DNA from: Paracoccaceae bacterium
Lineage (GTDB): Bacteria > Pseudomonadota > Alphaproteobacteria > Rhodobacterales > Rhodobacteraceae
DNA: 64,000 bases
Reading direction: 5' to 3'
Assembly: GCA_027013095.1 (NCBI GenBank)
Contig: JALUYI010000023.1
Coordinates: forward strand, 1-64,000
Position numbers and translations under genes: made by a program. The notes under the pieces were generated by a model that was given only the letters and a program-made list of their open reading frames with translations, was not told the DNA's origin and ran no database searches. This document shows positions 14,217 to 35,011 of this stretch, in pieces. Within the stretch, counting starts at the first letter, position 1. Each line of letters opens with the position of its first letter.

Positions 14217-15143
14217 GTGTCCGTAAAGACGAAAACACCATATGAAATACTCGGGGTCTCTCCCAAGGCCTCAGATGCCGATATCAAAAAGGCCTACAAG
14301 GCGCTGGCCAAAAAGCTGCACCCGGACCTGAACCCCGGCAAGGCCGGTAATGAGGACCGGTTCAAGGACGTGTCGGCGGCGTTCAATTTTCTCAAGGACA
14401 AGGAGCAGCGGCGCCGTTACGATGCCGGAGAAATCGACGCATCCGGGCAGGAAAAGCCCGAGCATGCGTTCTATCGCCAGTATGCCGGGGGACCGCAAGG
14501 CCAGCGGTATCGCTCGGAGGCCGAATATGACGATCTCAACGATATTTTCGCCCAAGCCTTTGGTCACGGCGCACAGGGGCCGGGGGGAGCTAAAATCCGC
14601 ATGCGTGGGGCCGATCTGCGCTTTCATCTAAAGCTGGGATTCCGTGACGCTGTCAAAGGCACCAAGCAGCGGGTCACGACACCGGACGGTCAAGCATTGG
14701 ACATCACCATCCCCGCCGGGATTCAGGACGGCCAGACCTTGCGGCTGGCCGGGCGTGGCCAACCGGGACTGAATGGCGGCCCTCCCGGGGACGCGCTGAT
14801 CGAAATCTCGGTCGGGCGGGACAGGTTGTTCAGCCGCGAGGGCAACGACATCCTGCTGGAGTTACCGATCTCTATTGACGAGGCCGTCCTTGGCGGCGCC
14901 GTCGAGGTTCCGACGGTTGACGGCTCGGTCAAACTGAAGATCCCCGCCGCATCGAGCAGCGGGCGCAAGATGCGGCTGAAAGGGCGCGGCGTCAAACCGG
15001 CGCGCGGGAAGGCCGGAGACCAGATCGTCACCCTCAAGATCGTCCTGCCCAGTGCCCCGGATGCGGCGCTGAAATCGGCCATGGAGGCGCTGCGCAAATC
15101 CGGCTCATACGATGCGCGGAAAAACTGGAAGGGGCAGGCCTGA
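14217..15143 (+). CDS. cbpA: DnaJ-type co-chaperone, CbpA family
   Basis: A 308-residue class II J-protein: N-terminal J domain with the HPD tripeptide at about 35-37 (KLHPDLNPG), a short linker without zinc-finger cysteine repeats, then two C-terminal beta-sandwich client-binding domains. It stimulates DnaK ATPase and in Escherichia coli also binds curved DNA. GTG 14217 is the best start: it directly precedes the J domain and AAAGGGG lies nine to fifteen bases upstream. The next gene overlaps the stop (TGATG) and encodes its modulator CbpM, which confirms the family. Confidence 0.9.
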   Translation: MSVKTKTPYEILGVSPKASDADIKKAYKALAKKLHPDLNPGKAGNEDRFKDVSAAFNFLKDKEQRRRYDAGEIDASGQEKPEHAFYRQYAGGPQGQRYRSEAEYDDLNDIFAQAFGHGAQGPGGAKIRMRGADLRFHLKLGFRDAVKGTKQRVTTPDGQALDITIPAGIQDGQTLRLAGRGQPGLNGGPPGDALIEISVGRDRLFSREGNDILLELPISIDEAVLGGAVEVPTVDGSVKLKIPAASSSGRKMRLKGRGVKPARGKAGDQIVTLKIVLPSAPDAALKSAMEALRKSGSYDARKNWKGQA

Positions 15144-15475
15144 TGTTGACCGAGACCGATGTTCTTGCCCGGATTTCGGGCCTCAGCAAGAAACGCCTCA
15201 GGGTTTGCGTATCCCGGGCCTGGGTCACTCCGGCAAGCGGAAAGAGCGGGGCAATGTTTGACGAGATCGACCTCGCCCGGCTGCGCCTGATTTCCGAGCT
15301 GCGTGACAATCTGGGGGTCAATGACGACGCCGTCCCGATCATCCTGTCCCTGATCGACCAGTTGAACGACGCGCATCGACGCCTGCGGACAATCGACTGC
15401 GCCGTCCGCCGTCAGGGGCCGGACATGTCGGAGAAAATCGTCTCTTGGCTGCGTGCCGAGCTGGCCCAAGAGTGA
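15143..15475 (+). CDS. cbpM: Chaperone modulator CbpM
   Basis: A 110-residue MerR-HTH-like protein that binds the J domain of CbpA and inhibits it. Seen: N-terminal short helices (LTETDVLARISGLSKKRL), a central FDEIDLARLRLISELRDNLG helix and a C-terminal predicted coiled segment. It overlaps cbpA by one base (stop and ATG share the A), so translation is coupled. Its 3' end lies 36 bp from a convergent operon. Confidence 0.85.
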   Translation: MLTETDVLARISGLSKKRLRVCVSRAWVTPASGKSGAMFDEIDLARLRLISELRDNLGVNDDAVPIILSLIDQLNDAHRRLRTIDCAVRRQGPDMSEKIVSWLRAELAQE

Positions 15476-15511: not shown

Positions 15512-15937
15512 TCAGAACGGAAACGGTTTGCCCCACATGTAGGACATCGGATGCGAGACCGCATAGGTCGCCTGCCCGACATCATAGGTCATTTTGGACA
15601 TGCTGGCGTTCATTTGCAGCATGACCCCCGACAGGTTCCGCACCGAGCCCGACATGTCGGCGATTTTCCCGTTCATCAGGGCAATATTCTGATCCATATG
15701 GCTGGTGTTGCCGCGCATTTTGGCCATGTCGAGGCTCATGGCGTGCATATCGGCGGCCATGCTGGTCTGGGTCACGACCATGGATTTAAAGCTCTGGTTC
15801 AGTTCAACCATAACGTCGGTCATCTTGAACACCTGCTGGGCCATCCCGTACATGACCCAGGTGAACAGGGCCATGACAATGACGATTCCAAGAGTGGTCA
15901 GGACAATGAATCCGCCACTGTTCACGCGTCTATACAT
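15512..15937 (-). CDS. Methionine-rich, membrane-anchored coiled-coil protein, function unknown
   Basis: I do not recognise this protein. It has 141 residues: a short basic N terminus, one transmembrane helix (about 9-32) and a long periplasmic or cytoplasmic helical region in which Met recurs at about every third or fourth position (for example MAADMHAMSLDMAKM), about 20 Met in all. The C terminus ends in aromatic YMWGKPFPF. The Met spacing suggests a coiled coil packed on methionines or a copper-binding surface; both are speculation. AAGGA precedes ATG 15937. It is last in the 27893-15512 operon, 13 bp after the M41-like gene, and converges on cbpM. Confidence 0.75.
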   Translation of the reverse strand: MYRRVNSGGFIVLTTLGIVIVMALFTWVMYGMAQQVFKMTDVMVELNQSFKSMVVTQTSMAADMHAMSLDMAKMRGNTSHMDQNIALMNGKIADMSGSVRNLSGVMLQMNASMSKMTYDVGQATYAVSHPMSYMWGKPFPF

Positions 15938-15950
15938 GCGTATTTTTCCT

Positions 15951-16547
15951 TCATTTTGCGGCCTCCCCGGGCCGAGATTTCCTGCTGCCAAGACCCATCA
16001 TACGCCGGAAACGGCCAACCTTGACGCGCGCCGGCAGATGCTGATCGAGAAACCCCTCGATGGTCGGTCCGTCAATGATTTCTTCGCCGTTCCGAACGCG
16101 GGCGTGCAAGAACTCGGCTACTGTGACGATCGCCGCGCAGTAGGGAGCGTTGTCAAAGATGTTGCGGCTGCGCTCTTCGAGGTCAAACCATATGTCCTCG
16201 GGATCGCGGCTGTCACCAAGACCGGCCAGAAGGCGCGTCAGCTCATCGATGCGGGCGATATCGCCGGAACAGCAGGTGTTTGAGCCGCAAGCGATCTCCT
16301 CGGCGATCTGCCCGCCGAACAGTTCCATGATACGAATCTCCAGCATCTCGCCGAACGACCCCCAGTCGCGGCCGCGAAAGGCCTTATCGCTGAGCAGCAC
16401 CGGCGGGCGCGGGAGCATCCTCAAGGCGTGGATTTTCAGTCCCAGCGCGCGGGCAACCAGCGCATGACCGGATTCATAAACCGCCAATCGAAAGGCCAGC
16501 TCTGCACATCTGCCCTGCGGTAGGTCGCAATTTTGTCGGCTATACAA
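15951..16547 (-). CDS. Stand-alone M41 (FtsH-type) protease-like domain with degenerate zinc site
   Basis: A 198-residue protein whose first half follows the FtsH protease domain: LAVYESGHALVARALGL aligns with the HEAGHA helix, and FGGQIAEEIACGSNTCCSGDI with the later segment that carries the third metal ligand (Asp). The AAA+ module is absent. In the HExxH position the first His is Tyr24 (codon TAT at 16476-16478), so Glu25 and His28 remain but one zinc ligand is gone. It is therefore probably an inactive scaffold or adaptor, unless another residue substitutes. No ATG is available; TTG 16547 with AAAGGG six bases upstream is the only sensible start, since a stop lies six codons before it. 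It is the tenth gene of the operon. Confidence 0.7.
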   Translation of the reverse strand: MYSRQNCDLPQGRCAELAFRLAVYESGHALVARALGLKIHALRMLPRPPVLLSDKAFRGRDWGSFGEMLEIRIMELFGGQIAEEIACGSNTCCSGDIARIDELTRLLAGLGDSRDPEDIWFDLEERSRNIFDNAPYCAAIVTVAEFLHARVRNGEEIIDGPTIEGFLDQHLPARVKVGRFRRMMGLGSRKSRPGEAAK

Positions 16548-16618
16548 TTCAGGCCCTTTCGTTCACTCGGCCTTGGTGACCGAGCGTGGTGTTCTGGCAC
16601 AGATGGCGCCGCGTACGC

Positions 16619-18229
16619 TTAGGCGACAGCGTTGCCTTTTTGCGTGTCACTGCCACCGCCCCCCCCGCTCGCATCCGCGGACGTGTGCCTCGTGGGGGCC
16701 TCGGTCGGCGTGGCATCGCCCGTCGGTGCCGCCGGCGACCTTGATTTGTCCGCGACGATGGGCGCGGCGTCCTCCCGGGGCGGCTGGACCGGATCGACCG
16801 GCGCGGTCTTGCCCGAGGGGTCCGCGTAACGGTCGTTGAGTTCCTGAATATGGTTGGCCACGGTTTCGCGAATTATACGCAGCTGACGGCGGTCGCGCTT
16901 GCCCCAGCCAACCGGAAACGGGCGAAAGATCGAGCGAAACAGCCCGGTGCTTTTCTCGAATGCTTGCCTGAGGTTCAGTTCGACATGCCCGAACGCCTCG
17001 GGCAGGCCGGCAGCGATGCGACGGGCGACAAACCCGCGCAGCCAGATATGGAAACTGCCCGCCAGAATGATCACCGCCAGAACACCCACGGTGACATCCA
17101 GCAGATGCGCACCAATCCAGGCAAAGCTGAAGACATCCGCCGATGGCATCCAGCCAAAGCGCAGCATTGCCCCAAGCACCAGCAGCAGAACACCCCCCAG
17201 CGCCACCCCGTCGCCCAACAGCACATTGCGCCGCCAGCGGTCCTTGGCCTCGGTCAGCCGCGGGATGATGTCGTGCTCCATCTCATTGGCCACCGTCTCC
17301 AGAACGCCGACAATACGATAGTTGCGCTGCAAGTCCACCTCGTCCATGCGTTCGACAATCTTTTTCAGATCGTGGTCGCGCTTGGCGCGAAAGCGCTCGC
17401 GCAGCCCCTCGTCCTCGATTGGGTTGGCCGCTTCTTCGTTGTAAATGGTAAAGAATTGTCCGGCCCCCAGCCCCGCCTGCGCCACGGCCCTTTGCCATGC
17501 GCCGGTGATGTCCTCGGGGTTGTCCTCTTTGGCGGCGGTGTCGATCTGGTTCAGAACATAAAAGAATTTCGACGCATCGGTGCGCGAAACGGTATTGGCA
17601 ACCAGATGCTCCAGCGTATCCTGCATGGCGCCCGGTTCTGGGTGGCGGGCGTCAAAAAACACCAGAACCATGTCCGAGAGGTCAATGATGTGATCAGTGA
17701 TCCGCAAGGTCGAGCGGCGCTGGTCATCGGCGTCGAAACCGGGACTGTCGATCAGGATCTTGCCTTTGATGCGCTCTTTGGCAGTGGTGCGCAACTGTAG
17801 GTAGCTTTCGATATGCTTGCCCTCGCCCTGCGCCACCTTTTCGATCTCGCCGCTGATCCGAAAGAACGGAAACCTCGGGTCTGCATCTAGGGCCGAGCCG
17901 GGCAACGTGCGGTTGCCTCCGACCCCCGCCGAGCGGTGGCAGATCACGGTAAACTTGTCGTCCACCGCCTGATTGCCAGTGTCCTGAATCTTTTCGCCGA
18001 TATAGTCGTTAATAAAGGTCGATTTGCCGGAACTGAAGGTGCCCAGAACCGAGATCAGCGGCCACCACGAGATGCGAGAGGCCAGCGAGCTTTCCCGATC
18101 CAGCAGCCCGACCCGATAGAGCATCTTGTCGAATTTGTAGAACGTCGGCAGCACATCCAGCAGCGCCGGGTTCTCGGCCTGCATGTGGCTTTCCAGACGT
18201 TCCAACCGCTTTTTCAGAAAATCGCTCAT
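16619..18229 (-). CDS. Dynamin-like GTPase, membrane-associated
   Basis: A 536-residue bacterial dynamin-family protein. G1 is GTFSSGKST (63-71), G3 is DSPGFD (about 165-170) and G4 is NQID (about 215). After the G domain come helical segments, then two hydrophobic stretches (about 335-405), a basic region and a disordered Pro/Ala/Asp-rich tail. Known: bacterial dynamins bind and remodel or fuse membranes with GTP hydrolysis. Here it is encoded 24 bp after the TPR-like gene and two genes after a ParA-type ATPase, in an operon with an RND pump. Two membrane segments suggest permanent inner-membrane anchoring. Role in membrane organisation is inferred. Confidence 0.85.
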   Translation of the reverse strand: MSDFLKKRLERLESHMQAENPALLDVLPTFYKFDKMLYRVGLLDRESSLASRISWWPLISVLGTFSSGKSTFINDYIGEKIQDTGNQAVDDKFTVICHRSAGVGGNRTLPGSALDADPRFPFFRISGEIEKVAQGEGKHIESYLQLRTTAKERIKGKILIDSPGFDADDQRRSTLRITDHIIDLSDMVLVFFDARHPEPGAMQDTLEHLVANTVSRTDASKFFYVLNQIDTAAKEDNPEDITGAWQRAVAQAGLGAGQFFTIYNEEAANPIEDEGLRERFRAKRDHDLKKIVERMDEVDLQRNYRIVGVLETVANEMEHDIIPRLTEAKDRWRRNVLLGDGVALGGVLLLVLGAMLRFGWMPSADVFSFAWIGAHLLDVTVGVLAVIILAGSFHIWLRGFVARRIAAGLPEAFGHVELNLRQAFEKSTGLFRSIFRPFPVGWGKRDRRQLRIIRETVANHIQELNDRYADPSGKTAPVDPVQPPREDAAPIVADKSRSPAAPTGDATPTEAPTRHTSADASGGGGGSDTQKGNAVA

Positions 18230-18253
18230 GGTTTTGGTCCTATCGTTTGTCGC

Positions 18254-19108
18254 TCAGTTCGTCTTGCTCGCCGTTTTGCGCAGCTCGTCTGCCATCTGCG
18301 GCGCAATCGCCTGAAGGACCGACAGCATGGCCTGCGCGCGGGCAGTTTGACCAGTCGCCAGAAGGTCGCGCGCGACGCGCTTGTAATAAGGCGCGGCCAG
18401 TTTGACCCGCCCCGAGGAATAATAGATGTTGCCCAGTTCCCCGGCAAAATCCACCCGGTTCGGGAAATCCGCGATCAGAGCCTTGTAAAGCTTTTCGGCG
18501 GTTTTGCTGTCGCCCTTCCAATAGGCGGCGCGGGCCGCATTCTGGCGTCTGGTCGCGTCGTCTTTCGGCGATGCCGATTTTTCCTGTGGCTGCGCTTGGG
18601 GCTGCGGTTCTGCCAGCGCGGTTGTTGTCGGCACGGGCGTGGGAGTCGGCGGGGTCAGGGGCACGGCCTCAGCGGCAGGTTTTTCGTTCGCGGCCACCGG
18701 AGCGGGGGTAGCCTTGGGCACCGTCACGCCGAGTTTTGGTTTGGGCGCGGGGGCAGTCACTGCAGCGCTGGCGGTGACGTCGTTGGCCCGCGGCGCGGGG
18801 GTGGCCTGCGGTGCGGGCGTCGCTGCAGGGGCGCTCTGGGCGGGGGGTGCCACCGTCGCCTGTGCCGTAGCGTCGGCTTTGGCCACATCTGTCGCCGGTG
18901 CCGCATCATTTTCGGGCGTTGCGACCTGATCCTCCGCAACCGGCGCGGCAGGGGGGATCGGAGGCAGAGACGGGTCCGAATAGGCGACACTGGCGCCGTC
19001 GCCGGCAATGCCCAGCATCTGCTTCAGCCCGTCGCGGTTGAAGACGATGAACACCGCCACACCAACCAGCACATAAATGGTTATCAATCGAACAAATGGC
19101 ATGATCAT
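18254..19108 (-). CDS. Membrane-anchored protein with Pro/Ala-rich linker and TPR-like C terminus
   Basis: A 284-residue protein: transmembrane helix at about 5-23 (RLITIYVLVGVAVFIVF), a long Ala/Pro/Val linker (about 45-190) that looks disordered, and a C-terminal helical repeat region (about 195-275) including ARAAYWKGDSKTAEKLYKAL, which fits a tetratricopeptide pair. TPR units usually bind partner proteins. I infer a tether or scaffold for the ParA-type and dynamin-like proteins encoded on either side (gaps 43 and 24 bp). ATG 19102 is an alternative start. No enzyme motif was seen. Confidence 0.7.
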   Translation of the reverse strand: MIMPFVRLITIYVLVGVAVFIVFNRDGLKQMLGIAGDGASVAYSDPSLPPIPPAAPVAEDQVATPENDAAPATDVAKADATAQATVAPPAQSAPAATPAPQATPAPRANDVTASAAVTAPAPKPKLGVTVPKATPAPVAANEKPAAEAVPLTPPTPTPVPTTTALAEPQPQAQPQEKSASPKDDATRRQNAARAAYWKGDSKTAEKLYKALIADFPNRVDFAGELGNIYYSSGRVKLAAPYYKRVARDLLATGQTARAQAMLSVLQAIAPQMADELRKTASKTN

Positions 19109-19151
19109 CTTTTCATCCCCGGATCAGGTTTCAGAATTGTTGCGGCGCGGC

Positions 19152-19778
19152 TCATTTTGCACCGTAAAGAGCGTTGGCAAGGGCGTTCAGTTCTGCCGCC
19201 GCCTTGCCACTCGGTTCCATTTCAAAGGCTGCCAGCCCCTCAGAGAACGAGCGTCGAAAGGCGAGGCGTTGCACCAGTTTTTCCGGCACAGCCTGGATCA
19301 ACTGAAGCATCTTCAGCGCCTCCAGCGTCTCGGCGTTCTCGCGTGAGCGCGGGTGCGCATCGGCCCGGTTGATAAAGGCCTTGATCATCGGCATCCGCGA
19401 TTTTCCACCGCCGCGTTCGGCGGTAATGATGTCCAGAAACTGCTGCGTGGCCCAGATGTCAGCCTGTGAGGGGGTGACCGGAATCACGACCTGATGGCAG
19501 GCGCGGATGGCCGCCCGCAGCGCCTCCATATCCGAGATCCCGACGTCGATCAGCCAGTCGCCGCGGGCCTTGCCCTTGGCCGGCAGCTCATGCACGACCT
19601 TTAGCCCCGGCTCAATTGCGTCCTCGTCGCGGATCATGGCCACGTCGCTGACGGTGCGCTGCGGGTCGAGGTCACAAACCGTCACCTTGCGCCCCTCGGC
19701 CATACGCCAGACCGCCATATTGAAGACAACCGTACTTTTTCCGGTGCCGCCTTTGAAATTTGCAAATAGTGTCAACAT
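19152..19778 (-). CDS. ParA/MinD-type P-loop ATPase
   Basis: A 208-residue cytosolic ATPase with the deviant Walker A KGGTGKST (9-16), a second lysine-containing signature typical of the ParA/MinD/SIMIBI class, and Walker A' CDLDPQRTVSD (about 34-44). The short length and division protein/ParA-like middle (IPVTPSQADIWATQQFLDII) match orphan ParA-like proteins that position cargo such as chemosensory arrays, carboxysomes or polyhydroxybutyrate granules. No parB or plasmid replication gene is nearby, so chromosome or plasmid partition is unlikely. It sits 16 bp after the LolA-like gene and before the TPR-like and dynamin genes. Cargo positioning is inferred. Confidence 0.85.
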   Translation of the reverse strand: MLTLFANFKGGTGKSTVVFNMAVWRMAEGRKVTVCDLDPQRTVSDVAMIRDEDAIEPGLKVVHELPAKGKARGDWLIDVGISDMEALRAAIRACHQVVIPVTPSQADIWATQQFLDIITAERGGGKSRMPMIKAFINRADAHPRSRENAETLEALKMLQLIQAVPEKLVQRLAFRRSFSEGLAAFEMEPSGKAAAELNALANALYGAK

Positions 19779-19794
19779 TCCATGCGCCTCTAAC

Positions 19795-20601
19795 CTAGTT
19801 CCCGGCCGGTTTGGGTGCCGCAGGAGCGGTCAGGCTGCGCGCCTCACTCTGCTGCCAACCAGCGGGCGGGGCAAACATCGCGGGGTCCAGCGGAGCAACG
19901 ACCAGATGGTCCAGCCGCCGGGTTTCACCACCGGGGATCGACTGGCGCACGACGACCCGCAGGTCAGGGTCGAACCACCACTCTCCGGTGACAACGGGCT
20001 GGCCCTTGCGGATGATATCGACATCCCAACGCTCGGTCGGGCGGCCGGCGACCTTTTCCATCGCACGAAAGCGCATCAGCATCTTGCTGCCGTCGGGGAA
20101 AACCTCGCTGAGCGCATGGCGGCGCGCCGGATCCCACAGGATATCCACCGGCCCGCCGGTTTGCCCGGGACTGGAGATCAGCCAGCGCTCGGCCCGAACG
20201 CCGCTGCTGATCGCGTCGCCCACATGTTCGCAACGGGTATTCGGAGTCGGGGGACATGGCGATTTATAGCCAATCACGCTTTCTTCCGGCACCGCCTTGC
20301 CCCGGATCAGGGAATAGGTCTTACTGGCCGGATCAAGAATATACATCAGCCCCTTGGTCGGCAGGATAATCTGCACCACCCGTTTGCCGTTCTGCGTGTA
20401 TTCAAGGCGCATCTTGGCGCCGGATTTGACGATTGTCCCGACGCGCTCGGGCTGTCCAGGGCGCTGGCTGACGGCGGTGGCCGTGTACATCCGCGCGGCA
20501 CTTGCGGCTGTGGCGCTCGGCGCGGGCAAGACCGGGGTCAGCCCGCCGGTGCCAAGCGCCAGAAAAAGAACCACCCCTGCGGCTTTGATCGAGATCGGCA
20601 T
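19795..20601 (-). CDS. Exported LolA-like/DUF4412-like protein
   Basis: A 268-residue protein with an N-terminal signal sequence (core VVLFLALGTGG, Ala-rich cleavage zone near residue 30). The rest has the alternating beta pattern of LolA-fold proteins: GAKMRLEYTQNGKRVVQI, then GLMYILDPASKTYSLI, a Cys pair (CPPTPNTRC) and a C-terminal WWFDPDLRVVVRQ segment. Known: such folds bind lipid or lipoprotein acyl chains in the periplasm; here only the fold is suggested. ATG 20601 follows GGGGGA. It lies between the low-complexity protein genes and parA-like. A specific family name could not be assigned. Confidence 0.65.
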   Translation of the reverse strand: MPISIKAAGVVLFLALGTGGLTPVLPAPSATAASAARMYTATAVSQRPGQPERVGTIVKSGAKMRLEYTQNGKRVVQIILPTKGLMYILDPASKTYSLIRGKAVPEESVIGYKSPCPPTPNTRCEHVGDAISSGVRAERWLISSPGQTGGPVDILWDPARRHALSEVFPDGSKMLMRFRAMEKVAGRPTERWDVDIIRKGQPVVTGEWWFDPDLRVVVRQSIPGGETRRLDHLVVAPLDPAMFAPPAGWQQSEARSLTAPAAPKPAGN

Positions 20602-20692
20602 ATTTCCCCCTGTCGGTAAAATCCGTGCTGTTCGTGTTTCCGTCCGCCCCAGACAGGGCGAACGGGAGCTTTCTTGGGAGGGACACATTCTG

Positions 20693-20715
20693 GGCGGGCA
20701 CAGGCTGCGCCCGCC
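20693..20715 (-). promoter_or_regulatory. Intercistronic hairpin after the Gly/Asn-rich protein gene
   Basis: GGCGGGC (20693-20699) and GCCCGCC (20709-20715) form a 7-bp stem with a 9-base loop just after the stop of the Asn/Gly/Trp-rich gene, in a 134-bp gap. There is no U tract. It may raise the stability of the upstream mRNA relative to the downstream cytosolic genes. Confidence 0.45.
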
Positions 20716-20735
20716 GGAATGGTCACGCCTCAGCC

Positions 20736-21287
20736 TCAGTTCGAGGGCGCAGCGGGCTTTTGCAGGTCGGCCTTTGCGCCAGCCTTGGGAGCCGCCGCAG
20801 GAGCCGCAGGATTATAGGCCCCGGCCGGTGCGTTCGGTGCTGCACCCGGCTTTTGCTGCTGCCACGGAGCGGGGTAGCCATAGCCCGGATAGCCGTAGCC
20901 GTTGTTGCCGTAACCATAGCCATAGCCATTGCCGCGGCCACGACCTTCGCCTTGCGCCTTGCCCGTGGCATTGCCCGAGAAGCCAAAGTTGAAGCTGCCG
21001 TTCCCGTTGCCATTGCTGTTGCCGTTAAACGGACCCCAGTTGTTGCCCCAGTTGTTGCCCCAGCCATTGTTCCACGGAGTCCAGCCATTGAACGGACCCC
21101 AGTTGTTGCCGCCCCAGCCGTTATTCCATGGCGCCCAGCCGTTGCCGTAATAGGGACCATAAGCCGGGCCACCCCAATAGCCGGGAGCCGGCGCATAACC
21201 CGGGCCCCAGGTCTGGGCGTCAGCAGTTGCGACGAAAGCGCCGCCAAGTCCGGCAGCCAGAGCTGCGGTGATCATCAATTTACGCAT
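20736..21287 (-). CDS. Secreted Gly/Asn/Trp/Tyr-rich low-complexity protein (sulfur-globule-protein-like)
   Basis: A 183-residue protein with a clear signal peptide (MRKLMITAALAAGLGGAFV, cleavage after ADA). The mature part is repetitive: WAPWNNGWGGNNWGPFNG and near copies, an NGNGNG run, then GYGYGYGNNGYGYPGYGYP and an Ala/Pro tail. This composition resembles the sulfur-globule envelope proteins of purple sulfur bacteria, which is how such proteins are often annotated, but low-complexity similarity alone does not prove it. It also resembles structural or glycine-rich envelope proteins. A strong SD (AAGGAGA) precedes ATG 21287. It is the third of three consecutive aromatic/Gly-rich exported proteins between an RND pump and a ParA-type module. 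Confidence 0.75.
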   Translation of the reverse strand: MRKLMITAALAAGLGGAFVATADAQTWGPGYAPAPGYWGGPAYGPYYGNGWAPWNNGWGGNNWGPFNGWTPWNNGWGNNWGNNWGPFNGNSNGNGNGSFNFGFSGNATGKAQGEGRGRGNGYGYGYGNNGYGYPGYGYPAPWQQQKPGAAPNAPAGAYNPAAPAAAPKAGAKADLQKPAAPSN

Positions 21288-21398
21288 GTTTAGTCTCCTT
21301 GGTTTGTCCCGACTGAAATTTCGGATTTTGGCATCGGGACCTCTGCCTTTCTCCGCTTGAAGGCCTTCCCGGTGAGGAAAGCGCGTTGTCCGACCGGC

Positions 21399-22046
21399 TC
21401 ACCAAAAGCCGAACGGACTGAACCCAAAAAATGGGAAACCTTGTGAGGGCAAGCCACCGCCAAACGGCCCAAGCCCGGTGGTGCTGCCATAGGGGGTGAT
21501 CCCCGGCGCACCACCGTAGGGCAGGCCTCCATAGGGCAGGCCGCTGTAGGGAACGCCATAGGGGGTGGCGCCCCCATAAGGCGGGACGGCGCGGTAGGGG
21601 TTGGCCGCCCCGTAGGGACTGACCCGGCGCGGGAGATACCCCCGACCGGGGATATTACGCGCCTGCACACTGGCCTCTGGGGCCAGCAGCGCCGGGTTGA
21701 TCGCAACCCCCGGGGTCAGCGGCGAAAGAGGCGGCAATGCCTGCGGCTGTTGCAACGGAACGGCAGGGGTCGTCGGGGCCCTCCCCGACAGACGCGCATC
21801 AAGATCATCGGGAGCATAGACACTGCCCTGATCGGTGCCGTTGCCCCAGACTCCGCCGCCACTGGCGGGCGTGTCGATATAGGTCGGCGCTGTGCTGTCC
21901 TTGGCCTGCGCGGGCGCCGGAGTCGGGCTCCAGTTGTTGCCAGCGGTGGCCGCCTGACCGGAGATCGCCAAAGCCAGCGACCCGGCCAGCGCAAGGCCAC
22001 CGGCCAGCAGCAGAGGTTTGCGTGAAAAGATGAAAATCCGGCTCAT
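21399..22046 (-). CDS. Secreted Pro/Tyr/Gly-repeat protein
   Basis: A 215-residue exported protein, function unknown. Signal peptide: SRKPLLLAGGLALAGSLAL, cleavage near GQA. The second half is built of PYGG-type repeats (PYGAANPYRAVPPYGGATPY, then further copies), ending in a Phe/Gly-rich FPFFGFSPFGFW. The start at 22046 overlaps the upstream gene by 4 bp (ATGA), which indicates translational coupling and supports both frames in a region where several frames are open. Regular Tyr/Phe-Gly spacing is typical of self-associating structural proteins. Confidence 0.7.
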   Translation of the reverse strand: MSRIFIFSRKPLLLAGGLALAGSLALAISGQAATAGNNWSPTPAPAQAKDSTAPTYIDTPASGGGVWGNGTDQGSVYAPDDLDARLSGRAPTTPAVPLQQPQALPPLSPLTPGVAINPALLAPEASVQARNIPGRGYLPRRVSPYGAANPYRAVPPYGGATPYGVPYSGLPYGGLPYGGAPGITPYGSTTGLGPFGGGLPSQGFPFFGFSPFGFW

Positions 22047-22690
22047 TTCTGGACCCCGTAGTCTGTGCGATAGCCGGGCGGCGGCGCATAGCCCGGCGCC
22101 ACCCCATAGCCGAATGGCATAAAGTTCGGCCGCCCATAGCCCGGCCAAAAGGGAAAGCCCGGCCCATATCCCGGGGCCGGCGCGAATCCCGTGTTGGCGG
22201 CCCCCCCCCGCCGCACAGTCCAAGGCCGTCCAGTCCAAGGTCGTGCAGCCCAAACCGACCGACGTGGATCAGAAGCAGCCCAGCCGGTCGAGCCCGCGCG
22301 CTCCTGCGCCTGTCCGCGCCCCTGAACCGACGCATGGAGCGACGCTGAAAAGCCAAAGCCACCACTGAGCTGACCGGCCCCCTGCCCGCGCGCCCCGGCC
22401 CGCCCGGCGGCGGTGCTTGTGCCGACCCTCGGAGGGGTGCCCGAGGGGGCAAACCCTGGCCGGGGCTGCATCCAGTAGGGCAAGCTCTGGCGAACGCTCC
22501 AATCCGACGGGATCGAGCGCTGTGCCACAGGAGGTGCAAGCGGCGCCACGCTCTCGAACGGACCCGGAGGCGGCAGCGGCTTGTCCTGCGCTTTGGCCCC
22601 GGGGTTCAGGGTCAGGCCCAGAATCAGGCCCAAGGTCAGGGTCAAACCTTGGGTCAGGTTGGGAACACTCAATGGTATCGCTCGTATCAT
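22043..22690 (-). CDS. Secreted Gly/Pro/aromatic-rich protein
   Basis: A 215-residue exported protein, function unknown. It has a hydrophobic N-terminal signal region (LTQGLTLTLGLILGLTLNPG, cleavage near AKA), a Pro-rich early section, a Gly/Ala/Arg middle and a C-terminal GYGPGFPFWPGYGRPNFMPF type repeat. Composition groups it with the next two genes. It starts 12 bp after the RND permease stop and overlaps the following gene by 4 bp, so the trio belongs to the RND transcription unit. The middle part is the least certain because other frames are also open there. Confidence 0.65.
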   Translation of the reverse strand: MIRAIPLSVPNLTQGLTLTLGLILGLTLNPGAKAQDKPLPPPGPFESVAPLAPPVAQRSIPSDWSVRQSLPYWMQPRPGFAPSGTPPRVGTSTAAGRAGARGQGAGQLSGGFGFSASLHASVQGRGQAQERAGSTGWAASDPRRSVWAARPWTGRPWTVRRGGAANTGFAPAPGYGPGFPFWPGYGRPNFMPFGYGVAPGYAPPPGYRTDYGVQK

Positions 22691-22702
22691 GGTGACGTTT
22701 CC

Positions 22703-25700
22703 TCAATCCTGTTTCGGTGTGCCCGAGCCGGGCTTTAGCCGAATCCCGCGGCGTCCGGTCTGGCGCGGTTTACGCGGTGCTGTGGCGACTTTCCGGGGCG
22801 GTGATGGTTTCGTCCCGGCAGGTTTCGCGGCCTTGGGTTTCGCGGCCTTGGGTTTTGTGGTCTTGGGTTTTGTGACCGCCGGTTTTGGCGCCGCCGGTTT
22901 CGCAGCCTTGGATTTCGCGGTTGTTGATTCCGTAGGGGATTTCACCACTTTGGATTTCGCCGACGCACGCTTTTTGGGTGCCGCTTTGGGTGCTTTTTCC
23001 ACCGGCGTTTCCGACTGTTTCGGCGGCGCGGGAACGGGCGCGGCCACGACTTCGGGGGTGGCCACCTTGGCGGGTGTCTCCACCGCTGCGGGGGCGCGCA
23101 TCTCTGCGGTCGATTTTTCGGGCACCGTGACAGCTTGGGGGTGTGGTGTCGCCGGTGTGGCCGGGCGCGGCATTTCAGGCTGTGCCGCCGCGGCTCTGCG
23201 GGCCGAGATTGCCCGCAGCATGGCCTTGACGGCGCTGACCAACAGAAAGGCAATCGCCGCCCCCAGCAGAGCGAGAAGATCGACAAGCGCCCTGAGCGCC
23301 ATCATCAGACGCGCCAGCAACCCGGTGTCGCAGCGCGCGGCCTCAGCCCGTTTCAGCGCCTCGCTCTTAGGTTCTGACGGGCGGCCCAGCGTATCCTTTG
23401 AATCGGGTCCGGTGTCGCCTTGTCCACTCTCTGTCAACGCCTTGCGAAAGCTGACGCAGCCCAGCGGGATGACCACGAGCGTCAGAATCGTGGCCACCAG
23501 ACCACCCATCATCAGCGAGATCGCCATGCCCTGAAAGATCGGGTCCGACAAGATCACGGAAGAGCCGAGGATCAGCGCCAGAGCGGTAATGATGATCGGT
23601 CGGGTCCGAGTCGCACAGGCGGTGATGACCGCAGTGCGCGGATCGACCCCGCGCAACACCGCCTGGCGCGAGAAATCCACCAGCAGGATCGAATTGCGCA
23701 CGATAATGCCCGCCAGCGCGATAAAGCCGATCATCGAGGTTGCGGTGAACGGCGCCCCGAACAGCCAGTGGCCGGGAACGATGCCGATCAGGGTCAAGGG
23801 GATCGGCACCATGACGATTGCCGGGGTGATGAAATTGCCGAACTCCCAGACCACGAGGATATAGATCATGACCAGTGCGACACCAAAGGCAATGCCCATA
23901 TCGCGAAAGGTTTCGTAGGTGACGGTCCACTCGCCGGTCCACTCCAGCGCCGACTGGAGGCTGGTTTTCGGTGGTCCGGTAAAGGTCGTTGCCACCCGCA
24001 CACCATCCGGCGCGACATAGTCCTTCAGCAGCTTCTGAAGTTCAAGAATCCCATAGATGGGGGCGCCCAACTTACCGGTGACCTCGCCGGTCACGTATTC
24101 CACCGCGCGCAAGTCCTTGTGAAAGACCGGGTCGTCCACCATGAAGGGCTCAAAGCGGCCAAGCTCGGTCAAGGGGATCATATCGCCGCTGCTCGAGGGG
24201 ATCGGCAGTTGCCCCAGCCGCCCCAGATCGCCACGCAGCGCAATCGGCATTTGCAGATAGATGAACCGCGGCTCCAGTGAGCGCTGCGTCTTGGCGTCGC
24301 CCAGCTTGTATCCCCCCATCGCCATTTCGAGTTGGCGGTTGATGTTGGCAACCGACACCCCACGACGCGAGGCCTTTTCCCGGTCGATGACAAAGCGCCA
24401 GCTTTTGAACGGGGCCTGCAGGTAGCTGCCTTCATCGACAACAGTCTTGGCCTTGCCGAACAGATCACGCATGTCGCGCGCCACCTGACGGCGGGTCTTG
24501 GCGTCTGGGCCGTAGATCTCGGCGACCATAGTCTGCAGGACGGGCGGTCCGGGTGGCATTTCGACGACCTCGATGCGGGCACCCATCTTCTTTGCGATCG
24601 GCGTCAGCATCTTGCGCGCCAGATCGGCCAGCTGCGACGACGAGCGCGTACGTTCGCCTTTGGGGATCAGCTGCACCTGAATGTCGCCATACCACGGCTT
24701 GTTGCGCAGATACGAGTGGCGGACCAGACCGTTGAAATTGAACGGGCTTGCAGTGCCCGAATAGGACTGCACGGCCATGACCTCGGGCAAGCTCATCACA
24801 CGTTCCGAGAGGCGCGCGGCCACGTTCGCGGTGACCGGCAGCGCCGTTCCCGCGGGCATGTTGATGGTCACGTTGAACTCGGGCTTGTTGTCCTTGGGCA
24901 ACATCTTGACCGCAACGCTTTCGGTGGCGAACATGTAGAGGCTGCCGAAAAAAACCAACAGCAGGCCCGCGGCGAACAGCCATCCCTTCAGGCGACTGTC
25001 CAGAAGCGGCATCAGGATATTCCGATAGAATGCATCCAGCCGCTGCGCCTGACGGTGCTCGCGCAGACGCGCCTTTTCCAGATGCGCCATTGGCGGGCGA
25101 ATACGCTGGGCCAGCCACGGCGTGAAAATGAAGGCGGCAAACAGCGAGAACAGCATGGCCACCGAGCCCAGCGCCGGAATCGGCTCCATATAGGGGCCCA
25201 TCATCCCCGACACAAAGCCCATCGGCAGCAGCGCCGCAATCACGGTAAAGGTCGCCAGCACCGTGGGGTTGCCCACCTCGCGCACCGCGTCGATGCTGCA
25301 ATCAGCGGTACATTCCCCCTGCAACAGCCATCGCCGGTAGATGTTTTCAACCACGACGATCGCATCATCGACCAGAATTCCGATGGAAAAGATCAATGCA
25401 AACAAACTGACCCGGTCGATGGTATAGCCCAGCAGAAAGGCGGCAAAGACGGTGACAAGGATCACGATCGGGATCACCACCAGAACCACCGTCGCCGCCC
25501 GCAATCCCAGCGCCAGCCAGATCAGCACGGTCACCGCGCCGGTCACGACAAACAGCTTGAAGATCAGCTCGTTGACCTTCTCGTTGGCGGTAACACCGTA
25601 GTTGCGAGTCACCTCGACATGGACATTATCCGGGATCAGACTGCCTTGCAGGCGCTTGACATAGGCCAGAATGTCATTGGCCACCGTCACCCCGTTCGAG

Positions 25701-26707
25701 CCGGCCTTCTTGGCCACCGCAATGGTGACCGCAGGGGCCCCGATTGGCGCCAACTGCGGGCCCGAGGTTGCATCGGACAGGCCCACATGGGCGCGTGTCC
25801 CATAGGCCGGGCCGGTGTAATACGAGACGACATTTTGGGCTTCCGCGGTGCCGTCGGTGACCAGCGCCACGTCGCGCACATAGGTCGGGCGGCCCTGACT
25901 GACGCCAACCATCAGGTTCTCGATGTCCTGCGCATTGCGTAGAAACGCGCCGGTATAGAGGGTAAACGTGGTCTGCCCTGCCTCGACCGAGCCCACGCCG
26001 CGTTCAGAGTTGGCGGTACGGATAGTCTGCGCCAGTTGATCGAGGCTGATGCCAAAGCCGGCCAGACGCTCGGGGAAAACCTCGACCTTGATCGCCTCGG
26101 GGCGACCGCCGACGATAAAGCTCTGGGCGGTGTTGGGGATCTGCTTTAGCCGCTGCACGATGTCCAGCCCAAGCGAGCGCATGGCGGCCTCGTCAACCTG
26201 CTGCGACCACAGCGTCAGGGTCACAAGCGGCACATCGTTCACCCCCTTGGGGCGAATCAGCGGGCGCGAAACACCGGGTGGGATCTTGTCGAGGTTGGAC
26301 TGGATCTTGTCGTTCAGCTTGACCAGTGACGGGCCCATCTTTTCGCCGACCTTGAACTGCACGGTGACGATGGCGCCCTCGCGCTCGGAGCGGGAATAGA
26401 CGTGTTTGACGCCGGGGATCTCGGACATCAGCTTTTCCAGCGGATCGGTGGCCAGCGAGGCCACCTGCTCGGCAGAAGCGCCCGGATAGGAAAAGAAGAT
26501 ATCGACCATCGGCACCGAGATCTGCGGATCTTCCTGACGCGGGGTCAGCACCAGCCCCATCAGGCCCAGCGCAAGGCAGGCGATCAGCAACAGCGGCGAC
26601 AGCGGCGAATGGATGAAGTTCTTGGTCAGCGTCCCGGCCAGGCCCAGCCCGCGTTGGGGGGCGCTGGCGCCGGTCTCGGCATCTTCATTTGTCTGATTAT
26701 CGGTCAT
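22703..26707 (-). CDS. RND-family efflux permease with extra C-terminal helix and lysine-rich tail
   Basis: A 1334-residue inner-membrane RND transporter of the HAE/AcrB-like class. The first 1080 or so residues are standard: N-terminal helix, two large periplasmic loops, and the proton-relay helix GILVDDAIVVVENIYRRW. It differs from relatives in a tail of about 250 residues. The tail holds one more hydrophobic segment (LLALLGAAIAFLLVSAVKAM), then a Pro/Ala/Glu stretch, then about 100 residues of KPKAA-type repeats like histone H1 or AlgP, ending in basic RRGIRLKPGSGTPKQD. ATG 26707 has GGGAGG six to seven bases upstream. The membrane-fusion partner is 28 bp upstream. Cargo unknown. Confidence 0.9.
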   Translation of the reverse strand: MTDNQTNEDAETGASAPQRGLGLAGTLTKNFIHSPLSPLLLIACLALGLMGLVLTPRQEDPQISVPMVDIFFSYPGASAEQVASLATDPLEKLMSEIPGVKHVYSRSEREGAIVTVQFKVGEKMGPSLVKLNDKIQSNLDKIPPGVSRPLIRPKGVNDVPLVTLTLWSQQVDEAAMRSLGLDIVQRLKQIPNTAQSFIVGGRPEAIKVEVFPERLAGFGISLDQLAQTIRTANSERGVGSVEAGQTTFTLYTGAFLRNAQDIENLMVGVSQGRPTYVRDVALVTDGTAEAQNVVSYYTGPAYGTRAHVGLSDATSGPQLAPIGAPAVTIAVAKKAGSNGVTVANDILAYVKRLQGSLIPDNVHVEVTRNYGVTANEKVNELIFKLFVVTGAVTVLIWLALGLRAATVVLVVIPIVILVTVFAAFLLGYTIDRVSLFALIFSIGILVDDAIVVVENIYRRWLLQGECTADCSIDAVREVGNPTVLATFTVIAALLPMGFVSGMMGPYMEPIPALGSVAMLFSLFAAFIFTPWLAQRIRPPMAHLEKARLREHRQAQRLDAFYRNILMPLLDSRLKGWLFAAGLLLVFFGSLYMFATESVAVKMLPKDNKPEFNVTINMPAGTALPVTANVAARLSERVMSLPEVMAVQSYSGTASPFNFNGLVRHSYLRNKPWYGDIQVQLIPKGERTRSSSQLADLARKMLTPIAKKMGARIEVVEMPPGPPVLQTMVAEIYGPDAKTRRQVARDMRDLFGKAKTVVDEGSYLQAPFKSWRFVIDREKASRRGVSVANINRQLEMAMGGYKLGDAKTQRSLEPRFIYLQMPIALRGDLGRLGQLPIPSSSGDMIPLTELGRFEPFMVDDPVFHKDLRAVEYVTGEVTGKLGAPIYGILELQKLLKDYVAPDGVRVATTFTGPPKTSLQSALEWTGEWTVTYETFRDMGIAFGVALVMIYILVVWEFGNFITPAIVMVPIPLTLIGIVPGHWLFGAPFTATSMIGFIALAGIIVRNSILLVDFSRQAVLRGVDPRTAVITACATRTRPIIITALALILGSSVILSDPIFQGMAISLMMGGLVATILTLVVIPLGCVSFRKALTESGQGDTGPDSKDTLGRPSEPKSEALKRAEAARCDTGLLARLMMALRALVDLLALLGAAIAFLLVSAVKAMLRAISARRAAAAQPEMPRPATPATPHPQAVTVPEKSTAEMRAPAAVETPAKVATPEVVAAPVPAPPKQSETPVEKAPKAAPKKRASAKSKVVKSPTESTTAKSKAAKPAAPKPAVTKPKTTKPKAAKPKAAKPAGTKPSPPRKVATAPRKPRQTGRRGIRLKPGSGTPKQD
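22821..22925 (-). repeat. Seven 15-bp tandem repeats encoding KAAKP-type pentapeptides
   Basis: Seven consecutive 15-bp units lie in the RND tail. The plus-strand unit is GGTTTCGCGGCCTTG and variants, starting at 22821, 22836, 22851, 22866, 22881, 22896 and 22911. On the coding strand they encode lysine/alanine/proline pentapeptides. The first two are identical, so copy number could vary between strains. Confidence 0.85.
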
Positions 26708-26735
26708 AAGGATCCTCCCAGTTCCCAAATCGGTT

Positions 26736-27893
26736 TCACTTGCCGCCAGAAACCAGATTTGCGGGTGGATCCAAGATGACTTCTTCGCCGCCCCTCAGGC
26801 CGGAAACGACCGACAGCCGCCCCCCGGGCAAGGGATAGCCGACGCGGATCAGGCGCAGCGACGGTTTGCCGTTTTCAACGACAAAGACCGAGGGCAGGCT
26901 GCCGCGCCAGACCACCGCTGCGGCCGGAACCGCCGGTTGGCTGCGGGTCGGCACGGATTGGTCGGGAATCGTCACCTCGACATACATGCCAGGCCCGCCG
27001 GGAGTGCCCTTGGGCAGGTCGAACTTGACCTTGACGGTGTGGCGCCCGGGGTCAGCGACCGGATAGATCTGCGCCACCTTGGCCGCGACCGAGCCGCCGC
27101 CGCCGGCATCCAGTCGCGCCGGAACTGTCATTCCTTTTTTCAACCCGGCGGCCAGACGCACGGGCACATCGGCAACGATGCGCAGATAATCGGTATAGGC
27201 AAATTTCAACAATGGCGTGCCCGGTTGCACGGTGTCGCCGACCTCGACCATCTTGTCCACCACGACGCCATCAAAGGGGGCAACGGATTTTGCATCGCGC
27301 AGCTGCGCGTCCAGCGCGTCCAGATTGGCGCGCGCCTGCATCAACCCGCTCTGGGCCTGATTGACCCCCGAGCCGCGGGCGTAGAGATCGGCCTGCCGCT
27401 CGAGCCCCGAGTTCGAGCGCCCCATCGTGTCGGCGAACCCGCGGGTAAAGAACTGGTCGAACATGCTGGGCACGCCCATGCCGGGAAAGCCGGAAATCGA
27501 GTTGATCCGCGGGGAATAAAGCTCACGCGAGTATTGCATCTGGGCGTTGCGCACACCGGATTCAGCGCGATAGATCTGCGCCGCCGCGGCCCGGCGTTTG
27601 GCCTGAATGGCGGCATCGTCGATCGTCAGCAGAACCTCGTTCTTGGCGGCGCGATGGCCCTCCTTGCCAGCAATGAACTTGATCCGGCCGGGAATTTGGG
27701 CATTCAGCGTCACCTCTTTATAGGGTATGACCGTCCCGCCAACCGTTGCGCTGCCACCGACCTCGTTGGTCAGCACCCTCGCCGTCTTGAACGATCGTCC
27801 TGTTTGCTGGGCAATGGCCCCGGAATTCAGATACAACCCGAACGCGATCAGCGTTACAAGTACGGCAATGACATAGCGCCCCGTTTTCAGCAT
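26736..27893 (-). CDS. RND efflux membrane-fusion protein (periplasmic adaptor)
   Basis: A 385-residue HlyD/AcrA-type adaptor anchored by an N-terminal membrane segment (about 6-27). It shows the split lipoyl/barrel-sandwich halves (early GTVIPYKEVTLNAQIPGRI and later APFDGVVVDKMVEVGDTVQP), a helical hairpin containing an unusual Gly/Phe-rich insert (FPGMGVPSMFDQFFTRGF), a beta-barrel region and a C-terminal proximal domain. It links the RND permease to an outer-membrane channel, which is not encoded here. It is first in the operon; GGGAGAG precedes ATG 27893. The hairpin insert is atypical. Confidence 0.88.
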   Translation of the reverse strand: MLKTGRYVIAVLVTLIAFGLYLNSGAIAQQTGRSFKTARVLTNEVGGSATVGGTVIPYKEVTLNAQIPGRIKFIAGKEGHRAAKNEVLLTIDDAAIQAKRRAAAAQIYRAESGVRNAQMQYSRELYSPRINSISGFPGMGVPSMFDQFFTRGFADTMGRSNSGLERQADLYARGSGVNQAQSGLMQARANLDALDAQLRDAKSVAPFDGVVVDKMVEVGDTVQPGTPLLKFAYTDYLRIVADVPVRLAAGLKKGMTVPARLDAGGGGSVAAKVAQIYPVADPGRHTVKVKFDLPKGTPGGPGMYVEVTIPDQSVPTRSQPAVPAAAVVWRGSLPSVFVVENGKPSLRLIRVGYPLPGGRLSVVSGLRGGEEVILDPPANLVSGGK

Positions 27894-28012
27894 GACTCTC
27901 CCATCTTTCCCTGCTTTCGGAGGCGCTTGTTTTTTGGTTGCTTGATTGGCTGCAACGCCGTCCGAACTCCATCTGGGGCAGATTCATAACATATAAATAC
28001 CTTAATACCTAC

Positions 28013-28038
28013 TAATATATTGTTATGCGAATATATTA
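28013..28038 (-). promoter_or_regulatory. Perfect inverted repeat in AT-rich promoter of the RND operon
   Basis: TAATATATT (28013-28021) and AATATATTA (28030-28038) are exact reverse complements across an 8-bp spacer. They lie in a stretch (about 27984-28060) that is strikingly A/T-rich in an otherwise GC-rich window, 120 bp before the first gene of the 12-kb operon. It looks like a dimeric repressor or activator site (ArsR- or MarR-sized). The regulator is not identified. Confidence 0.5.
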
Positions 28039-28182
28039 AATCATTTAAGTAATTTAGGGTACCCCGCACCTTGAAAACACGGGTCAGTTGCGGGTTTCGA
28101 CCCGGCGGGAAAACCTGATACCGCGAATCACTTTTGGGGAAACCCCGCCCCCTCAACGCCTTGCGGCAGAGCGCACCTTGGC

Positions 28183-29133
28183 TCAGCGCACCTGTTTCTG
28201 GTGCTCGCTCAGTATTTCAGCCAGCACGCTGACCGCCAGCGTGCGCGCATCGCGCACTGACGGAACCAACCCTATGGGGCCGCGCAGGCGCGCCAGATCC
28301 GCCACGCCAATGCCGGCTTCCTGCAGCGCCAGCATCCGCGCATCGCGGGCGCGCCGACTGCCCTGTGCGCCGATATAAAACGCATCCGAGCGCAGCGCCC
28401 CGGCAAGGATCGGCGGCTCCCATTCGTGATCGTGAAAAAACAGCACCACCGCCGACCAGCGGTCTGCCAGCAACTCCACCGGCATCTCAGGGGCTTTCAG
28501 CCGACAGGTCGGGCTGCCGGCCTGATGCGCGCGCTCCAAGGTTTCCTGATCTGGCGATAACACCATGTTGGGATAGCCCGCCGACTGCACCAGAGCGGCA
28601 AATGTGCTGGCCTCGGGCCCCTTGCCGAAAACGTAGAAATATAGCTCGGGCATGATGCGGACGAGAAACCGGTCGCCATCGCGACCCGTTGCCCCCGTTT
28701 CGCGTATCTCCAGCCCGCCGTGGTCCGGTGCGATCGCCAGCGTAACCGGGCGCCTTGCCGCCTGTCGCATCACCAACTCGGACAGAACGCGCTGTTCCGG
28801 GCGCGGAAGCAGCAGTATTTCCAGCCCGCCACCGCACGGCAACTTGATATCGATGAACGGTGAGCCCAGCCCGTAGCGGACGGTTTTCGGGCGCCCGCTG
28901 TCCAGCGCCTCAGCAGCGTGCAGAACGATATCCTGTTCGATACACCCCGAAGACAGGGTCCCGACCCGCGCGCCGCCCGGCAGAATGGCCATATAAGCCC
29001 CAAGCGGCCGATACGACGGCCCGTCAACGCCGGTGATGACCGCCAGAACCGCATCGCCACCCTGTTCGGAGGCGTCAGCAATTGTCTGCAAGGGGTCGCC
29101 GTGCAATCCCCGGTCTGGGTCTTTTCTGCTCAT
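28183..29133 (-). CDS. xdhC: XdhC/CoxF-family molybdenum-enzyme maturation factor
   Basis: A 316-residue cytosolic protein of the XdhC/CoxI family, which binds molybdenum cofactor and helps insert the sulfurated form into xanthine-dehydrogenase-type hydroxylases. N-terminal domain: GVDGPSYRPLGAYMAI and the conserved GTLSSGCIEQDI. C-terminal Rossmann domain: VFGKGPEAST and the ending YIGAQGSRRARDARM. ATG 29133 follows GAGG and matches the family start. It is divergent from the moxR-to-coxM operon by 209 bp and almost certainly serves that hydroxylase. Confidence 0.88.
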   Translation of the reverse strand: MSRKDPDRGLHGDPLQTIADASEQGGDAVLAVITGVDGPSYRPLGAYMAILPGGARVGTLSSGCIEQDIVLHAAEALDSGRPKTVRYGLGSPFIDIKLPCGGGLEILLLPRPEQRVLSELVMRQAARRPVTLAIAPDHGGLEIRETGATGRDGDRFLVRIMPELYFYVFGKGPEASTFAALVQSAGYPNMVLSPDQETLERAHQAGSPTCRLKAPEMPVELLADRWSAVVLFFHDHEWEPPILAGALRSDAFYIGAQGSRRARDARMLALQEAGIGVADLARLRGPIGLVPSVRDARTLAVSVLAEILSEHQKQVR

Positions 29134-29342
29134 CCGCGCCTCATGTGGTTTGCTGCGACGCACAGTATGATCCGCTTGTGTGTGAACGGCAAGATACCCG
29201 CCCCCAAGCTCGCCCCCGGCAGCGGCATGGACAGGCGCCCTTGACGCGGGTTATGTCAGGGCTGTGGCCTGAAAACACAGACACAACAATATTGGCGCAA
29301 CGATACCGCCACCGACGGCAGAAAAAGAGGGCAAGGACAAAC

Positions 29343-31537: not shown

Positions 31538-31554
31538 TTTCTCCGCGATTTATG

Positions 31555-31599: not shown

Positions 31600-31617
31600 A
31601 CTCAGGACCAAAACCGC

Positions 31618-32094: not shown

Positions 32095-32138
32095 AATCTG
32101 AAAAAGCGGCCAAGCGCCGCGAGGTCAGGGAGGACCAA

Positions 32139-32609: not shown

Positions 32610-32633
32610 GCGGCACCACGGGAGGAACATGAA

Positions 32634-34997: not shown

Positions 34998-35011
34998 GGG
35001 AGGCACGAACG

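Follow-up and report, generated by a model that had tools for sequence, protein, structure and literature searches.

The stretch analysed here, which we call the window, comprises positions 1 to 64,000 (64,000 nucleotides) of contig JALUYI010000023.1 (assembly GCA_027013095.1) from a Paracoccaceae bacterium, an alphaproteobacterium whose 2.9 Mb genome carries dsrAB. On its minus strand, at 15512-27893, lies an operon of eleven genes that combines a resistance-nodulation-division (RND) pump and its adaptor with a sulfur-globule protein (Sgp), other low-complexity exported proteins, a ParA-type ATPase and a dynamin, and which, judging from its genes and their distribution, very probably serves sulfur globules. 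The pump ends in a long basic tail closed by a short motif, and the joint occurrence of this motif and ParA makes it likely that the two work together. These readings are carried by computed results, namely the conservation of the cluster, the identity of the Sgp, the association of the pump with Sgp and dsr genes, and the joint distribution of tail motif and ParA. The features concerned, with the genes numbered g01 to g11 from the head of the operon to its tail, are:

22703..26707, minus strand: g02, RND pump of 1334 aa (Pfam ACR_tran, E = 5e-142)
22706..23437, minus strand: C-terminal tail of the pump, about 244 aa, an additional hydrophobic segment followed by a basic Lys/Ala/Pro-rich stretch (from alignments and hydrophobic segments)
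22733..22753, minus strand: terminal motif RRGIRLK of the tail, proposed ParA-contact peptide (from a count of C-termini and ParA co-occurrence)
20736..21287, minus strand: g05, Sgp, rich in Gly, Asn, Tyr and Trp, with a predicted signal peptide (Pfam PF17228)
19152..19778, minus strand: g07, ParA-type ATPase of 208 aa with Walker A KGGTGKST (Pfam ParA/CbiA-type, E = 1.3e-12)

Association with Sgp and dsr genes

The match of g05 to the Pfam family 'Sulphur globule protein' is clear (E = 8.7e-11; score 43 bits, cut-off 26.7), and the corresponding proteins of other clusters hit the same family with E-values down to 7e-25. A low-complexity artefact was rejected as the cause of the match, since none of four shuffled sequences of the same composition matched. 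The N-terminus of g05, with a hydrophobic segment at residues 4-22 followed by ADAQ, is signal-like by hydrophobic-segment analysis.

For the genome-wide analysis we used 369 gammaproteobacterial genomes drawn evenly across the class. The pump family of the cluster is well set apart by score, as complete matches exceed 1500 bits and other RND proteins stay below 1250, and it is present in 73 of these genomes. Pump and Sgp occur together in 48 of them, the pump alone in 25, Sgp alone in 6 and neither in 290 (odds ratio 93, p = 7e-35); for pump and dsrB the corresponding counts are 64, 9, 55 and 241 (odds ratio 31, p = 1e-28). The link to Sgp persists when only the dsrB-positive genomes are considered, where the odds ratio is still 22. 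Several of the 6 genomes with Sgp only belong to a genus or family that carries the pump, therefore some of these pump absences may be assembly gaps. The association extends to the class of the window: among 40 alphaproteobacterial genomes dsrB was found in all 8 cluster carriers versus 9 of 32 non-carriers, and in one relative (G004) dsrAB lie only ~5 kb from the operon. Relatives of the pump that lack the tail have flavocytochrome c sulfide dehydrogenase (fccB) genes in their neighbourhood at five loci (L168, L177, L178, L224 and L232), a hint that the pump family as a whole may act on a sulfur substrate.

Conservation of the cluster

The same genes in the same order are found in relatives from within the genus and from a second genus of the family, with most proteins at 44-80% identity. 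Searching with the dynamin family returned 80 loci, and comparison of their neighbourhoods revealed a recurring order, partly rearranged in places: membrane fusion protein, RND pump, low-complexity proteins and Sgp, LolA-like protein, ParA, tetratricopeptide repeat (TPR) protein, coiled-coil protein and dynamin. The gene order is thus kept in relatives and in a second bacterial class, so that the scattering of genes which the initial annotation had named as grounds for regarding the operon as chance adjacency is not what relatives exhibit. The alphaproteobacterial carriers are Rhodobacteraceae (including Marinosulfonomonas and Sinisalibacter), Magnetospira, Magnetovibrio and other Rhodospirillaceae, and the gammaproteobacterial ones include Sedimenticola, Thiotrichaceae, Arenicellales and a lucinid clam symbiont. 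Within Rhodobacteraceae the module is rare, its dynamin being found in 4 of the 149 genera sampled. In the pump tree the pumps of Alphaproteobacteria fall into a single clade among gammaproteobacterial ones, which may point to an old transfer.

The composition of the cluster varies at its edges. A DUF302 protein with a membrane anchor often occurs as an additional member, seen at 40 loci (for example at 8277-8867 of L134) and absent from the copy in the window, while the FtsH-like gene g10 was seen only with alphaproteobacterial clusters. The small gene g11 stands at the operon head in most Rhodobacteraceae, at the tail in the window and in G008, and next to the dynamin elsewhere, so that it varies between head, tail and middle but always lies inside the cluster. 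We considered using the dynamin to mark the module and rejected this, as in Azospirillum, Rhodospira, Magnetococcales and others it stands alone; it is wider than the module, and a count of phyla with the dynamin is therefore not a count of phyla with the module. Three loci (L172, L174 and L244, in genomes G673, G880 and G785) belong to small genomes of 1.4-1.6 Mb that contain dsrB and have a pump without the tail motif, ParA or a neighbouring dynamin; from their gene content we regard them as a reduced version of the system.

The pump tail and ParA

Nearly all cluster pumps with a complete C-terminus continue for ~150-320 residues beyond the last conserved helix. The architecture of this tail is constant: a hydrophobic segment leads into a poorly conserved, disordered-looking basic stretch rich in Lys, Ala and Pro, which ends in a nearly invariant RRGI(R/Q)LK. 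The terminal motif is found strictly in 36 of 39 pump C-termini (two more have near variants), compared to 5 of 5874 other open reading frames (ORFs). What is the role of this tail then? The ATPase encoded in the same operon has a deviant Walker A of the form KGG(T/S)GKST, present in all rows of the ParA alignment, and its nearest solved structures are those of TP228 ParF (4dzz, 5u1g). None of the eleven operon proteins matched a ParB family in the family searches made. The motif at the end of the tail, its co-occurrence with ParA and an operon without a ParB-like gene lead us to read the tail as the partner of ParA.

The co-occurrence holds at the level of loci, where motif and ParA are both present in 63 cases and both absent in 22, with 9 exceptions. 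Four of these are explained by a frameshift (L195) or by near-motifs KGIRLK or RGIRLN (L204, L223 and L237), and in the other five (genomes G840, G650, G737, G791 and G583) a ParA of the same family is found elsewhere in the genome. It is even clearer per genome: leaving aside genomes with a truncated pump, unsearched genomes and G856, in which a second pump copy is cut by the contig end, 43 genomes have both, 13 have neither, one has the motif only (a metagenome-assembled genome that is 88% complete) and one has ParA only (p about 6e-11). The 13 genomes whose pumps have no motif contain no ParA of the g07 family anywhere, while in eight genomes motif and ParA are both present though ParA was not found beside the pump. 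Second pump copies that lack the tail are found in ParA-bearing genomes that retain a tailed copy. The motif state changes about 11 times on the pump tree, including several separate losses in genomes without a g07-family ParA, and the correlation between motif and ParA (phi 0.86) exceeds that of every other pair of cluster features, the next being 0.67. At four loci (L171, L179, L214 and L224) the dynamin, coiled-coil and TPR genes are kept, and ParA and the motif are both absent.

The RND pump and its adaptor

The adaptor is encoded at the head of the operon:

26736..27893, minus strand: g01, periplasmic adaptor (membrane fusion protein) of the RND pump, 385 aa (TIGR01730, E = 3.8e-48)

As in HAE1 pumps such as AcrB, MexK and MdtB, with which g02 shares the fold family and the presence of an adaptor, the aspartates of the proton relay are kept (D447 and D448, both invariant in the pump alignment). 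R1004 is also conserved and Arg takes the place of the lysine on transmembrane helix 10 (K940 in AcrB). Since the Asp-Asp relay is kept and Arg replaces this lysine, g02 should, by its sequence, be an active proton-driven transporter. In contrast to the HAE1 pumps, it has Arg at this position and a long conserved tail, the family searches found no outer-membrane channel gene among the eleven genes of the operon, and the adaptor carries an insertion in its hairpin region, a conserved Met/Gly/Pro sequence PGMG-P-MFDQ-FT in an alignment of 12 relatives.

Proposed mechanism

We propose that the oxidation of reduced sulfur would leave zero-valent sulfur on the periplasmic side, where the RND pump and its adaptor, perhaps with the LolA-like protein g06, may move hydrophobic sulfur or lipid species; these would be the cargo of the pump. 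Sgp-type and other low-complexity exported proteins would coat the deposit, and the pump may deliver material to the matrix that they form. TPR and coiled-coil membrane proteins could scaffold the site, and the dynamin might bend or stabilise the inner membrane around it. The basic pump tail ending in RRGIRLK would act in ParB's stead as the partner of ParA, presumably by physical contact. Nucleoid-bound ParA, stimulated by the tail, would then space the pump sites with their attached globules along the nucleoid, so that they are shared at division, and this positioning is the phenotype that we infer. Such a mechanism needs the tail on the cytoplasmic side; both its strongly basic character and its joint occurrence with ParA speak for the cytoplasm rather than the periplasm, short of proof.

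A dedicated system that makes and places periplasmic sulfur globules with the tail as the partner of ParA is, from the sequence data as a whole, the picture that we consider reasonably probable. In its most specific form the proposal makes sulfur globules organelles that a dedicated module builds and ParA positions; ParA would be activated by an RND pump through its cytoplasmic tail, with the cargo on the far side of the membrane. This form seems to us evenly balanced between holding and failing. The initial annotation, which had the operon build and position an envelope-associated structure, pointed in the right direction, as seen from the conserved module, the exported proteins and the one Sgp recognised by Pfam, without firmly identifying the structure; its gene set is confirmed, its reading is partly supported, and what it missed is the pump tail that co-occurs with ParA.

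Several observations weigh against this picture. One genome (G716) has a ParA of the g07 family and a tail without the motif, which is a true exception, and another (G653) has the motif with no ParA found. The hydrophobic segment separates the last pump helix from the tail, so that a cytoplasmic location is likely from the charge but not certain, and a single membrane crossing by this segment would put the tail in the periplasm, out of reach of ParA. Among the 73 pump-positive Gammaproteobacteria dsrB was undetected in 9, and the Fisher p-values treat genomes as independent, ignoring shared ancestry. The dynamin family of g09 is found alone, without the cluster, in Azospirillum, Rhodospira, Magnetococcales and some Ectothiorhodospiraceae. 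The case as a whole is built on sequence and predicted structures.

Alternative explanations

The pump could instead be a detoxification exporter for polysulfides or reactive sulfur in globule-forming cells, so that the cluster would be a sulfur-stress operon in which ParA merely spreads the pumps evenly and globules form independently. RND pumps are classically exporters, and the association with dsrB and fccB would fit sulfur stress just as well. Against this, the cluster itself contains an Sgp gene and the pump tracks Sgp even within dsrB-positive genomes; dynamin, TPR and coiled-coil genes would be unusual in plain efflux; also, no gene for an outer-membrane channel was noticed in the cluster, though no search was aimed at one in the relatives. 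We therefore consider the stress operon unlikely, if the strongest of the alternatives. Slightly less probable is a second scenario, which accepts the globules and questions the partner: the basic tail would bind nucleoid DNA directly, like the histone-like PhaM and PhaF on polyhydroxybutyrate (PHB) granules, and ParA would act on another protein of the cluster. Histone-like domains do tether PHB granules to DNA (PMC13052382), and the Lys/Ala/Pro-rich tails resemble histone H1. Against this, the short terminal motif is nearly invariant and the Lys/Ala/Pro stretch is not; the motif also tracks ParA more tightly than any other gene and disappears jointly with it at the four loci given above.

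That g07 is a common partition ATPase of plasmids or chromosomes, present in the operon by happenstance, appears very improbable. It does resemble ParA family partition ATPases (NF041546; TP228 ParF), but it falls below the NF041546 cut-off, forms a conserved family of its own, has no ParB-like gene in its operon and accompanies the pump tail genome-wide even where the two are unlinked. Chance adjacency of unrelated genes, for which one could cite the very different gene families involved, is refuted by an order conserved in dozens of genomes from two classes, and we give it practically no weight. A system for making and placing globules, with the pump tail as the partner of ParA, is thus the reading that we prefer.

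Remaining genes of the operon

The other proteins of the operon are encoded by the following features:

22043..22690, minus strand: g03, Pro/Gly-rich low-complexity protein, probably exported (ORF with an N-terminal signal-like segment recognised by eye)
21399..22046, minus strand: g04, Gly/Pro/Tyr-rich low-complexity exported protein (ORF with a signal-like segment; recognised in relatives)
19795..20601, minus strand: g06, secreted beta-rich periplasmic protein of LolA/RseB/ependymin-like fold with an invariant Cys pair (AlphaFold, Foldseek, alignment)
18254..19108, minus strand: g08, N-terminal transmembrane helix (residues 5-23), Pro/Ala-rich linker and C-terminal TPR (Pfam TPR)
16619..18229, minus strand: g09, dynamin-family GTPase of 536 aa with two C-terminal hydrophobic segments (Pfam Dynamin_N, E = 2.4e-12)
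15951..16547, minus strand: g10, degenerate FtsH protease domain of 198 aa (weak Peptidase_M41-like match, E = 0.003; AlphaFold with Foldseek, E = 2.7e-5)
15512..15937, minus strand: g11, small conserved protein with an N-terminal transmembrane helix (residues 10-28) and Met-rich coiled-coil-like repeats (ORF, transmembrane segment)

A Pfam search gave no family match for g03. The AlphaFold model of g06, which is of good confidence (pLDDT 86.6), matches LolA, RseB and EPDR1 in Foldseek with E about 1e-5 at low TM-scores of about 0.2-0.4. Folds of this kind often bind hydrophobic ligands, and the model makes it possible that g06 is a carrier of such a ligand.

The GTPase motifs of g09 are invariant in the alignment (G1 GTFSSGKST, G3 DSPG and G4 NQxD), and its nearest solved structure is EHD4, from a family of membrane-shaping ATPases. 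It shares with EHD ATPases and bacterial dynamins the GTPase domain with these three motifs and the two hydrophobic segments; unlike them, it belongs to a family of its own, which keeps 48-60% identity between distant lineages. Our literature search found no functional study of this family. Close relatives of g09 stand alone at ten loci (L081, L083, L085-L090, L117 and L136), which indicates that the dynamin has a wider role.

The protein g10 had been described as a degenerate FtsH-type protease, and this is borne out: the fold of the FtsH (M41) protease domain is kept, but the AAA+ module is absent and the HExxH zinc site is replaced by YE(S/A)GH in nearly all relatives. With both missing, g10 is more likely, as modelled, to be a binding module than a protease.

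Operon layout and genomic setting

All eleven ORFs are present, and recomputing the gaps from the best start codons gave 28, 12, -4, 111, 134, 16, 43, 24, 71 and 13 bp, identical to the initial annotation, whose naming of an RND pump, low-complexity exported proteins, a ParA-type ATPase and a dynamin agrees with the family matches. From head to tail the order is RND adaptor (g01), RND pump (g02), low-complexity proteins (g03-g05), g06, ParA (g07), TPR protein (g08), dynamin (g09), g10 and g11. The convergent neighbour at the operon tail was also found as described; it is a MerR/CbpM-like gene at 15143-15475 on the plus strand, which sits behind a DnaJ-like gene, so that the pair converges on the tail. 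At the head there is one further feature:

about 27950-28080, no strand: AT-rich intergenic stretch, candidate promoter region (sequence)

The AT-rich promoter proposed there is thus upheld as to the AT-rich stretch, in which a consensus scan found no sigma-70-like site. The next gene upstream (28183-29163) lies on the same strand and read-through into the operon is therefore possible. The layout and the setting at head and tail make a single transcript of the eleven genes likely.

Upstream of the operon, 28183-35806 encodes XdhC/CoxF-like, MoxR-type AAA and VWA (CoxE-like) proteins together with the large and medium subunits of an aerobic CO-dehydrogenase-type molybdenum enzyme, the large subunit scoring below the CO dehydrogenase equivalog cut-offs. 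Further away, at 50839-55169, a distantly PhsA-like molybdopterin oxidoreductase with a DsrO/TtrB-like iron-sulfur subunit adjoins a phenylacetate-CoA-ligase-like gene; from its sequence this oxidoreductase is possibly a Soe-type sulfite dehydrogenase.

Relation to known systems and significance

In Allochromatium vinosum sulfur globules involve SgpA-D. The protein g05 belongs to the same Pfam family, and the other low-complexity proteins of the operon also look exported. SgpD is a possible coiled-coil protein whose gene adjoins that of a hydrophobic/amphiphilic exporter (PMC10386293). In contrast to our operon, sgpD forms its own transcription unit, and no ParA, dynamin or tailed pump has been described with it. 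With ParA/MinD systems that position cargo (ParABS, McdAB of carboxysomes, PomXYZ) the operon shares a ParA-type ATPase with intact Walker A, and its candidate partner, the pump tail, has the sequence features of a disordered-looking basic part and a short motif built from aliphatic and positively charged residues. It would differ from all of these in that a pump of the inner membrane supplies the partner through its C-terminal tail and the cargo is periplasmic, so that the membrane lies between cargo and nucleoid.

ParA positioning and Sgp proteins are already known, and it is their union through the pump tail that is undescribed in the literature searched. That search returned no account of a single system that links ParA, RND pumps or dynamins to sulfur globules; its coverage of A. 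vinosum is incomplete and an earlier mention is possible. The formation, coating, spacing and inheritance of sulfur globules are largely open questions, as the literature found describes Sgp coat proteins, some of them dispensable, and no machinery that makes or places globules. The module offers candidate parts for the pump, the scaffold, the membrane and the positioning. Its carriers are sulfur oxidisers, among them animal symbionts and relatives of magnetotactic bacteria, and the shortness of the peptide motif makes the contact between ParA and the pump directly testable. If it is true, ParA positioning would extend to cargo held across a membrane.

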